From the NCBI GenBank assembly GCA_951813575.1, contig OX638375.1:4008752-4072751 (forward strand): 64,000 nucleotides of DNA, in the 5' to 3' direction. Of this stretch, positions 39,722 to 63,941 are shown in pieces. The notes beneath the pieces were generated by a model. It was given only the letters and a program-made list of their open reading frames with translations, made no database searches and had not been told where the DNA came from. This DNA is from Candidatus Binatia bacterium (lineage in GTDB: Bacteria > Desulfobacterota > Binatia > UBA9968 > JAJDTQ01). Position numbers and translations under genes: made by a program. Every line of letters starts with the position of its first letter. Position 1 is the stretch's first letter.

Positions 39722-39906
39722 GCGATTCGCTCCTCCAAGCTTTGCCGACCGTCAACCCCGACGAATACGCGCTTGCCGACTCCTTGAACCCGTCACGAAT
39801 CTACCGGAAACGGACACCCGGGTCCATTTGCCCGAAACCGTTACCGCTGGACCGGCCACCTCCCTGTCACCCCGCGCCTTGCCGGTGCCCCCGTACCCAT
39901 CTCTGC

Positions 39907-40064
39907 GTCACTCCGGGCTTGACCCGCGCGTCACCCCGGGCTTGACCCGGGGTCCAGAGGCGGGGTGGGGCCCAGCAACCGACAAGGGACCGCGGACAGG
40001 AAGCGGCGGTGGAAGCGAGCGGCCGCGTTTCGACGCCTGGACCCCGGGTCAAGCCCGGGGTGAC
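39907..40064. repeat. Paired REP palindromes (locus A) with a head duplication
   Basis: Two copies of a 28-bp palindromic unit occur in opposite orientation: 39930-39957 (gtcaccccgggcttgacccg...) and 40037-40064 (ctggaccccgggtcaagccc...). Together they can fold into a long stem, as REPINs do. A third, partial copy at 39907-39929 repeats the head of the first with a 23-bp period. The whole gap 39722-40136 carries no gene. Units with the same core occur at 51.3 and 62.5 kb. Confidence 0.85.
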
Positions 40065-40163
40065 GAGTACTGAGTGCGGGGTTTGATGTGCCGACGGCGG
40101 GTGGAGTAGAAAGACCGTGCGAGGCCGCCGGCAGCCATGGGCTGCACGGCCGGAGATCGACTC

Positions 40164-51316: not shown

Positions 51317-51437
51317 CTGGATCCCGGGTCAAGCCCGGGATGACGGGGAGGTGGACCGGGATGACCGGGAGGTGGACCGGGATGACCGGCGTGTACCGTA
51401 TCCCCCAACGTCATCCCGGGCTTGACCCGGGATCCAG
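51317..51437. repeat. Paired REP palindromes (locus B) with a 21-bp tandem array between
   Basis: REP units at 51317-51344 (ctggatcccgggtcaagccc...) and 51410-51437 (gtcatcccgggcttgacccg...) are in opposite orientation. Directly on the tail of the left unit a 21-bp repeat, gatgaccgggaggtggac plus 3 bases, starts at 51339, occurs twice in full (51339-51359 and 51360-51380) and begins a third time at 51381. The gap 51236-51613 is otherwise gene-free. Confidence 0.83.
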
Positions 51438-61768: not shown

Positions 61769-62286
61769 AAGGGTCTACGCTCCTCGGTGTGATCCTGGTG
61801 TTCACGTCGCTGCTGTTCTTCGGGTGGTCGTTCTCGTACGGCGGCATGGCGGGCTTCGTGCCGCTGGTGCTGTCGTTCCCGACGGTGGCGCTGGCGATCC
61901 TGTGTCTGGCCGGCGAGCGCTATCCCCGCATCATGTCGGCCTTCGAGGTGAGCCTTGAAGACGTCCTCACCTCGGCCGCGGGAGCCGAAGGCAGCATCCC
62001 CGGTGAGGAAGTCCAGACAGGCCCCAAGGCCGGCGAGATGGGCCTCATCACCCGGATGTTCCTGTGGTTCTTCCTTTTCGGGCTGCTCGTCTTCATCACC
62101 GGGTTCTACATCTCCACCCTGGTGTTCGCCTTGGCATTCACGCGTTTGCAAGGCGGCATCGGTTGGCCCGGAGCGGTCTTCATCACCGCCCTGGCGCTGG
62201 GGTTCTTCTACTTCATCTTCGAGGAAACGCTGGCCGTGGACCTCTTCGCTGGCGTCATCTTCGGAGCCTTCATCCCGCCGCTGTAA
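61765..62286 (+). CDS. tctB: Tripartite tricarboxylate transporter small permease TctB
   Basis: A 173-residue protein with four membrane helices: LLGVILVFTSLLFFGWSF, FVPLVLSFPTVALAILCL, LITRMFLWFFLFGLLVFITGFY with ISTLVFALAF, and AVFITALALGFFYFIFEETLAV. An acidic loop of about 40 residues (EVSLEDVLTSAAGAEG and onward) separates helices 2 and 3. TctB pairs with TctA. Its ATG overlaps the tctA stop by 4 bases. The 3' end runs into the repeat-rich gap. Confidence 0.87.
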   Translation: MKGSTLLGVILVFTSLLFFGWSFSYGGMAGFVPLVLSFPTVALAILCLAGERYPRIMSAFEVSLEDVLTSAAGAEGSIPGEEVQTGPKAGEMGLITRMFLWFFLFGLLVFITGFYISTLVFALAFTRLQGGIGWPGAVFITALALGFFYFIFEETLAVDLFAGVIFGAFIPPL

Positions 62287-62367
62287 GGGCCGCGCCGCGT
62301 TCTGCTTCGGCCGGGCCAAGGGCCATAACCAAGACCGGGCCTCATCACGCGGGCCCCCACGCCGTCA

Positions 62368-62500
62368 TCACCCCGTGCCCTCCACCTCCGCCATCCGAAG
62401 CCCCCATTTCCGTCACCCCGTGCCCCCACCTCCATCACCCCGTGCCCCCACCTCCGTCATCCCGTGCCCCCACCTCCGTCATCCGGAGCCTCCACTTCCG
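62368..62500. repeat. 22-bp imperfect tandem array leading into a REP unit
   Basis: Six units follow in register: 62368-62391 (24 bp), 62392-62412, 62413-62434, 62435-62456, 62457-62478 and 62479-62500. The core is tcaccccgtgcccccacc. The next unit in phase is the REP palindrome itself (tcaccccgggcttgaccc from 62501), so the array ends exactly where the palindrome begins. Confidence 0.85.
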
Positions 62501-62622
62501 TCACCCCGGGCTTGACCCGGGGTCCAGGCATTGAACCGCTGCCCGCCGTATCATCGCCGTATCCCGTTGATGGGACCACTCCCCTCCCGCCTTTCTGGAC
62601 CCCGGGTCAAGCCCGGGGTGAC
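62500..62622. repeat. Paired REP palindromes (locus C)
   Basis: Units at 62500-62527 (gtcaccccgggcttgacccg...) and 62595-62622 (ctggaccccgggtcaagccc...) are opposed and nearly identical to the pair at locus A. The 67 bases between them are unique. Both arms feed directly into tandem arrays on their outer sides. Confidence 0.87.
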
Positions 62623-62764
62623 GCAGAGGCGGCCGGGGGTGACGCAGAGGCGGCCGGGGGTGACGCAGAGGCGGCCGGGGGTGACGCAGAGGCGGCCGGG
62701 GGTGACGCAGAGGCGGCCGGGGGTGACGCAGAGGCGGCCGGGGGTGACGCAGAGGCGGCCGGGG
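62618..62764. repeat. Seven perfect 21-bp tandem repeats
   Basis: Seven head-to-tail copies of a 21-bp unit with core gacgcagaggcggccggg start at 62618, 62639, 62660, 62681, 62702, 62723 and 62744. They are uninterrupted and identical, so the array is young or actively homogenised. The first copy overlaps the last five bases of the REP unit (ggtga). Being a multiple of three, it reads Gly-Asp-Ala-Glu-Ala-Ala-Gly in one frame, but no gene is supported. Confidence 0.95.
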
Positions 62765-62840
62765 ATGATGGGAGGGTGGGGCCGCGGGGTCGAGCGTGAA
62801 AGGACGGAGATGATGATTCCGTTTGACGGACGTAGCGACC

Positions 62841-63941
62841 CTACAACGCGACCCAGCGCTGTTCCGTGGATGATTCCAGGGCCGCGTCTAGCACGCGCTG
62901 GGCGGCGAGGCCGTCGGCGAAGCTGGGTGAGGCGGGGGTGCCGTTGCGGATGGCTTCCACGAAGTCGCGGGTGAGCCTGCCGAAGATGAACTCCCCTTGA
63001 GCGCGCTGCGGGTCCGAGGCGTCGAGCCCTTGGGTGTAACGTTCCGGGACCTCCAGGGGCTCTGGTGAACGGGTGTCGTCGCGGGCGCCCCACAGTTGGC
63101 CGCGAATCCAGCCTTCCACGTTGCGGTCGAAGGTGAACCGCAGCATCCCGGCGTCGCCATAGATCTCCAGGTTCTGGTAGTTGCTCTTCCGCGCCACCGC
63201 GCTCAGGCGGACGCACGCCGAGGCGCCGCCGGCGAGCCGCGCCATGAGCGTGAAGTTGTCGTCCACCGTCACCAGCCGGGCCACACCGCCCTCGTCCAGC
63301 CGCTCCGGTATGAAGGTGTCGGCATGCCCCCAGAGGCTCTCGAACTCGCCGACGAGCCAGCGGAGCCGGTCCACCACGTGCACGCCGATGTCGCCGAGAA
63401 CGCCGAAGCCGGCCAGCTCCCGTTGGTGGCGCCAGTAGTGGGTCTGGCCCGGCGCCGCGCGGTTCTCGCTGAACCAGCGGCTCTCCACGTGGAGCACCCG
63501 CCCGCCCACGTAGCCGCCGTCCATGAGCTCCTTCATGTAGGCCAGCGCCGGGATGTGGCGGTGGTTGAACGCGGTCATGTGCACGCGCCCGGCCGCGCCG
63601 GCCTGGTCCAGCATGCCTTGGGCCTCGGCCGCGTTCATGGCCAGGGGTTTCTCGCACAGCACATGGAGGCCCTTCGCGAATGCCGCCGAGACCATCTCCG
63701 CATGGAGGTGCGGCGGCGCAACGATGCTCACGGCGTCGAGCCCTGGGTGGGCCAGTAGCGCGCGGTAGTCCGTGTACACGTGGGGCACGCCGAACTTTCC
63801 GGCCGTCTCCTCCGCCTTTTCCTTCGTCCGTTGGCAGAACGCCACCACCTCCGCTGCCTCGGTGGCGCCGTAGCCCTGCAGGTGCTGGATGCCGAAACCG
63901 CCGCCGATAACGCCGACTCGCACAGGTTGGCCCGTTGTCAT
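62841..63941 (-). CDS. Gfo/Idh/MocA family oxidoreductase
   Basis: A 366-residue NAD(P)-dependent oxidoreductase. The Rossmann motif is RVGVIGGGFGIQHLQGY near residue 8. The conserved C-E-K-P-L is in GLHVLCEKPLAMNAAEA (K contacts substrate and nicotinamide), and the N-H-R-H of FNHRHIPALAYMKELMDGG lies in the substrate region, with GVLGDIGVHVVDRLRWL (G-x-x-x-D-x-G-x-H-xx-D) further on. These act on sugars, inositols or biliverdin-like compounds; the substrate is undecided. The gene's start, at 63941, lies 59 bases inside the window's right edge, so its upstream partner is not visible. Confidence 0.9.
   Translation of the reverse strand: MTTGQPVRVGVIGGGFGIQHLQGYGATEAAEVVAFCQRTKEKAEETAGKFGVPHVYTDYRALLAHPGLDAVSIVAPPHLHAEMVSAAFAKGLHVLCEKPLAMNAAEAQGMLDQAGAAGRVHMTAFNHRHIPALAYMKELMDGGYVGGRVLHVESRWFSENRAAPGQTHYWRHQRELAGFGVLGDIGVHVVDRLRWLVGEFESLWGHADTFIPERLDEGGVARLVTVDDNFTLMARLAGGASACVRLSAVARKSNYQNLEIYGDAGMLRFTFDRNVEGWIRGQLWGARDDTRSPEPLEVPERYTQGLDASDPQRAQGEFIFGRLTRDFVEAIRNGTPASPSFADGLAAQRVLDAALESSTEQRWVAL

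Follow-up and report, generated by a model that had tools for sequence, protein, structure and literature searches.

The 64-kb window, meaning the whole stretch of DNA analysed here, contains near position 62 kb a convergent intergenic space between a gene for a tripartite tricarboxylate transporter subunit, which ends at 62286, and an oxidoreductase gene on the minus strand (62841–63941). The names of both flanking genes are our reading of their translations. This space holds two inverted copies of CGTCACCCCGGGCTTGACCCGGGGTCCAG, at 62499–62527 (+) and 62595–62623 (−), each of which is joined by a tandem array. Two further REP pairs with tag-side arrays, at 39905–39949 and 51335–51389, occur in the same window. 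The features are as follows:

62366–62498, plus strand: left array of six imperfect 22-bp units (CGTCACCCCGTGCCCCCACCTC-like) whose phase continues into the left REP's CGTC tag
62499–62527, plus strand: left CGTC-REP, CGTC-ACCCCGGG-CTTGA-CCCGGGGT-CCAG (family definition, PMC3733652)
62528–62594, no strand: 67-bp spacer of the head-to-head REP pair
62595–62623, minus strand: right CGTC-REP, the exact inverted copy of the left REP
62611–62768, minus strand: right array of about 7.5 units of 21 bp, 98% identical, overlapping the tag and stem arm at 62611–62623
39905–39949, plus strand: two 23-bp units (truncated REP) beside the tag of the CGTC-REP at 39929–39957, whose partner REP is at 40037–40065 (−)
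51335–51389, minus strand: array of 2.6 units of 21 bp on the tag side of the CGTC-REP at 51317–51345 (−), lying between tag-facing REPs, the second of which is at 51409–51437 (+)

Both arrays of the 62 kb region are recovered by TRF, which places the left one at 62368–62508 (period 22 × 6.4, 79%; score 203 as a 44-mer) and the right one at 62611–62768 (period 21 × 7.5, 98%, score 302), compared with a top score of 62 in 20 first-order shuffles of the 64-kb window. These results confirm the two arrays proposed in an initial annotation of this DNA, including the six left units of 22 bp that run in phase into the REP head; one more decayed unit lies immediately 5′ of them. That annotation had described a single REP palindrome, with the right array starting at its tail and overlapping it by five bases. 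Instead, there are two inverted REPs separated by the 67-bp spacer, which fold into a single long hairpin; both arrays begin at CGTC tag ends, and the overlap on the right is about 12 bases (62611–62623). The right array, thought to consist of seven perfect units, does carry six exact copies of GGGGGTGACGCAGAGGCGGCC (62635–62740), but its first copy uses the REP's own GGGGTGACG and its last is partial. The gtcacccc core was correctly recognized as common to both arrays, and corresponds to the CGTC tag plus the 5′ stem arm.

These palindromes have the properties of CGTC-type REPs, which are described in the passages available from Di Nocera et al. 2013 (PMC3733652) as having a CGTC tag, an 8-bp stem, a loop of 4–5 nt, a CCA tail and a mostly head-to-head arrangement, and to which those passages assign no transposase. 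The elements studied here have CGTC (or TGTC) at the 5′ foot, a stem of 8–9 bp, a loop of 4–5 nt and a CCA tail, as in ACCCCGGG-CTTGA-CCCGGGGT-CCA and ATTCCCGC-GAAA-GCGGGAAT-CCA. They are present in many copies that are mostly head-to-head, with 50 such pairs among 176 sampled REPs.

The genome under study (G000) is closed and measures 4.21 Mb. It was sampled evenly by using 60 stretches of 20 kb plus the window, to which 20 more stretches picked for holding REPs or arrays were added, giving coverage of about 1.6 Mb of the 4.2 Mb. REP detection required perfect stems, and thus decayed REPs were missed. In the even sample, 52 of 123 TRF arrays start at the tag edge of a CGTC-REP, whereas 2,000 random placements yield a mean of 0.70 and a maximum of 6, and none of the 123 lies at the opposite (CCAG) edge. 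Most of these tag-edge arrays (38 of 52) have a period of 18–23, and most of the remainder fall near multiples of it (38–45, 58–66). A TRF-independent measure gives the same picture: 90 of 176 distinct REPs, a set that takes in the chosen stretches as well, have their own 9-nt head repeated 18–24 bp beyond the tag, most often at 21, and additional peaks follow at 40–42, 60–64 and so on; only 1 of the 176 has such a copy on the tail side. In the even sample alone, 43 of 82 REPs have an own-head neighbour at 17–25 bp. Furthermore, a three-head pattern with 19–22-bp spacing matches 127 times in G000 and not once in a reversed control.

The observation made in the window is one case of a genome-wide rule. 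Other REP-edge arrays of similar unit, which the initial annotation suggested looking for, do occur elsewhere in the genome, and random distances between arrays and REPs, which would have spoken against it, fail widely as a description of the data. Its proposal that arrays are seeded at palindrome ends holds for REP edges; however, because the CGTC-tag end is used and the CCAG end never is, palindrome ends in general are not supported.

When aligned at the local period, units match their REP with an identity of about 1 at positions 0–8, about 0.8 at positions 9–10 and 0.56–0.60 at positions 11–12, falling to background from position 13; the values at positions 0–8 are partly fixed by how copies were selected, but the drop at 12–13 is not. 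This drop coincides with the stem/loop boundary, and thus the usual unit consists of CGTC, the 5′ stem arm and a linker of 6–10 bases (about 9, C-rich). Most units end at this boundary, so the whole REP, which is the repeat unit in tandem REP/REPIN clusters, is not the unit here. Separate tandem arrays of 34–44 bp that do have a whole REP in the unit were seen at L131:1385-1717, L142:6893-7090 and G000:C1 2038473 and 2085326.

The linker is identical along one array and different between arrays. Variants private to a REP recur in the units that adjoin it: ATTCC beside ATTCC REPs, TGTC beside TGTC REPs and CGTCTCCCC beside CGTCTCCCC REPs, with CGTCACCCAGG as another example. In 9 of 82 arrays the linker, scored as at least 7 of 9 bases, also recurs in the DNA that directly borders the outermost unit (2.6% expected by chance, p = 0.0003), as is predicted by local duplication of flank plus head. 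The remaining 73 of 82 have no linker at this position, and a C-rich tendency at −9 to −5 is common to REPs with and without arrays, so some of the linker may be a piece of the mobile element and not unique flank. Resemblance to the REP is higher in proximal than in distal units (p = 3.5e-6), and this gradient persists when the first and last units are left out (p = 0.002). Homogenisation could produce such polarity as an end effect.

The two breakpoints that define a unit both vary far more than its length does. The period has an SD of 1.24 compared with 5.0 expected for independent breakpoints, a low value to which the search range of 16–25 bp contributes, although a wider scan is nearly empty at 9–17 and 25–33. 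Inner and outer breakpoints are strongly correlated (r = −0.94). The inner breakpoints form a main cluster at 9–14 (79 REPs) and a second group at 20–22 (11 REPs), and units with the deeper inner breakpoint are still 19–23 long. Hairpin length was considered as the ruler and rejected. The mean period in G000 is 20.3 for loop-4 REPs and 21.2 for loop-5 REPs (p = 0.008), a weak fit that hints at hairpin geometry, but the related genome G007 does not follow, as its loop-4 REPs carry units of 21–22 bp.

Arrays are also independent of the way in which REPs are paired. Pairs whose tags face each other have the array between the REPs in 10 of 12 cases, such as 51317–51437 in the window, and arrays are carried by 29 of 72 partnerless REPs and 59 of 101 paired REPs. 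Both tag-facing pairs and partnerless REPs therefore have their arrays on the tag side, which rejects a reading of arrays as a feature of the base of a long paired hairpin. Array gain at one end of a pair is independent of the other end (17 pairs with arrays at both ends, 15 and 9 at one, 9 at neither). Array presence is likewise unrelated to the direction of the replication fork under three assumed origins (p 0.39–1.0). As a separate observation, the one or two bases just outside both tags of head-to-head pairs agree above chance (p ~0.02 in G000, 0.003–0.01 in G007), a pattern resembling an outward extension of the inverted repeat.

A related three-head pattern is found in other members of the genus, with 86 matches in G007, 17 in G004, 6 in G005, 1 each in G002 and G008, and none in G001, G003 and G006; most of these assemblies are fragmented and may have lost arrays, so the counts are lower bounds. 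The 23 arrays in stretches of G007 chosen for REPs or arrays have a mode of 21–22 bp, and none is on the tail side. Exact copies of one REP family number 322–603 in G004, G005 and G007. Arrays are not simply proportional to REPs, since G005 and G007 have similar copy numbers (508 and 603) but 6 and 86 three-unit matches, respectively. A comparison of arrays at the same site in relatives was precluded because the intergenic region differs in content between them and cannot be aligned.

Beyond the genus, the three-head pattern with slightly looser spacing has no match in 296 genomes of the phylum, and four alphaproteobacterial replicons (7.2 Mb) with the same REPs contain no head pair at array spacing. 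Among 2.9 million viral contigs, nine stretches match. In two of these (L273 and L274) the units run into a CGTC-REP, and the near-identical L276 and L279 have head arrays near CGTC heads; similarity searches yielded no clear host for these contigs. The viral matches and the array-free alphaproteobacterial REPs together indicate that the array habit is not unique to the genus, yet is not a general property of CGTC-REPs.

Our leading explanation, held tentatively and at a little under even confidence, is that CGTC-REPs of this genus act as hot spots at which a segment of about 21 bp (two helical turns) spanning the tag-side edge is duplicated in tandem, with later expansion by slippage. The main rival is plain replication slippage or template switching at the REP hairpin, wherein the polymerase slips by about one hairpin length, duplicates some 21 bp and slips again to expand the array, with no dedicated factor. 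This process would require no new biology to place arrays beside palindromes, and it is consistent with a hairpin of 20–21 nt that is near unit size, with the shorter period of loop-4 REPs in G000 and with an inner breakpoint at the loop. It explains this loop-side breakpoint but not one-sidedness. Slippage predicts tail-side arrays too, and equal use of both hairpin sides is a feature of simple slippage minisatellites, whereas the counts are 52 tag-side and 0 tail-side by TRF, and 1 of 176 by own-head copies. There is also no leading- or lagging-strand effect, the 21–22-bp units of loop-4 REPs in G007 do not fit, and the same REPs have produced no head pairs at array spacing in the 7.2 Mb of alphaproteobacterial replicons. 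Hairpin slippage in the form given by the initial annotation thus leaves the asymmetry, the absent fork bias and the constant unit length unexplained, and we regard plain slippage as an unlikely account.

Selection for spaced binding sites is improbable. In that case a putative protein would recognise CGTCAYYCC, and two-turn arrays would be retained because they are functional, as with iterons or operator arrays. The near-constant spacing of two helical turns and the conserved core of 9–12 nt with a free linker are what such selection would favour. However, linkers that are the same within an array and different between arrays are a mark of duplication rather than of site assembly. The spacing also wobbles from 18 to 24, copy number ranges from 1 to 15 and about half of the REPs have no array.

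Another possibility, to which we assign a very low probability, is that ready-made cassettes of REP plus array were copied to many loci, such that each array would have brought its edge position along instead of acquiring it in place. Some repeats do recur: the CCACTATAT linker is found at several loci near 2.03–2.06 Mb, and related C-rich linkers of the ...AATA/GATA type occur across G007. There is also a 23-bp CTTGACCCGGA unit (a REP cut after CCCGG, plus A) at seven G000:C1 loci (875180, 1881553, 2312289, 2602659, 2789975, 2857583 and 3318312), with one variant at G000:C1 4048680, which is the array at 39905–39949 in the window. Most linkers in G000 are nevertheless unique to one array, the left array of a pair is usually unlike the right one, having an array at one end does not predict having one at the other (17/15/9/9), and private variants are found in both a REP and its adjoining array.

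The initial annotation also looked to a RAYT gene and to REP-associated nuclease activity. One RAYT-like gene is indeed present, the only Y1_Tnp gene in G000 (L031:805-1812; G000:C1 about 2278669-2279676), encoding a 335-aa protein with Y1_Tnp and a DnaA_C-like end. The protein resembles the subclass 2.1/TIRYT group, for which the available sections of PMC6006769 give no known REP association; a search of solved structures with it gave no match. An active RAYT has an HUH motif and a catalytic Tyr. The G000 protein retains HUH, but Tyr115 (E. coli RayT numbering, aligned) is His, as it is in G002 and G006. With this substitution and this protein type, nuclease action by the RAYT-like protein is unlikely today, and we do not name it as the agent. 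The gene is single-copy in 8 of 9 genus members (L031, L300-L306) and is at the same locus in most, one aligning by its downstream flank only. CGTC-REPs flank it in 5 of these 8, which is not surprising given how dense REPs are in those genomes. Just before its start codon is a conserved GGGTCARACCTTGAACT-like stretch, mostly with a further G ahead, that in several genomes agrees with GGGGWSAS, the TIRYT repeat consensus; the reversed ACCCC-type CGTC-REP head (GGGGTGAC) fits this consensus too. A scenario in which this RAYT/TIRYT-like Y1 transposase makes the duplications by cutting at the CGTC tag is the least probable of the rivals and is rejected for the present-day protein: although it is the sole Y1_Tnp of the genome, has REPs beside it and is related to enzymes described in the accessible text of PMC8266576 as cleaving single-stranded DNA beside tagged hairpins, its catalytic Tyr is lost in the very genome richest in array matches, and gene presence does not track arrays, as G003 and G006 carry the gene with no matches.

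Tandem duplication at the tag-side edge of the REP would be in keeping with what is established: the position of the arrays, their tag side, their near-constant length, the REP-private sequence of their units and their independence from replication direction and pair orientation. We infer a putative tag-reading factor, nicks and an order of events as follows. The factor would read the CGTC tag plus hairpin and open or nick the DNA. A stretch of about 21 bp, usually the stem arm, CGTC and about 9 bp outside, would then be copied twice, for instance through gap filling after staggered nicks or displacement, such that new units arise beside the REP. From two units on, ordinary slippage or unequal exchange would expand and homogenise the array while its far end decays. 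Such arrays may be functionless in themselves. It is somewhat unlikely, in our estimate, that a dedicated lineage-specific activity reads the tag and repeatedly duplicates a fixed 21 bp or so beside it, which would be a tandem-duplication system of measured length not described before. The one-sided arrays of near-fixed unit length carried by about half of the REPs sampled are the footprint of whatever process handles the tag, and differences in array content between species offer something on which to test that process. The dozens of natural repeat loci can also be used to study how bacterial minisatellites start.

The open-licence literature searched, as far as its accessible text extends, yielded no account of tag-side REP arrays of about 21 bp. 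The nearest relatives are the CGTC-tagged REPs of Di Nocera et al. (PMC3733652), which have the same tag, stem, loop, tail and pairing, and whose dRS3-like ATTCCCGC family is also present in G000; in the passages available from that paper, grouped elements are rare except in Neisseriae and Wolbachia, and tag-side half-unit arrays are not mentioned. Pseudomonas REPINs and tandem REP clusters (Bertels and Rainey 2011, PMC3116915) likewise involve paired inverted REPs. According to the portions available of that paper, the clusters may include flanking DNA, and a second, cluster-forming process was proposed. There, however, whole REPs or REPINs repeat every 70–180 bp, whereas here the tag plus one stem arm repeats every 21 bp or so on one side.

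GTAG REPtrons with their TnpA_REP (RAYT) also have a tetranucleotide tag beside a hairpin, which in that system directs single-strand cleavage. Their tag differs, and the Y1 protein found here, which has lost the catalytic Tyr, falls in another subclass. CRISPR spacer acquisition is a polarised duplication of fixed length at one end of an array. The likeness to REP-edge arrays is one of analogy only, because these arrays have no spacers and no fixed repeat, and the linker is duplicated along with the head.
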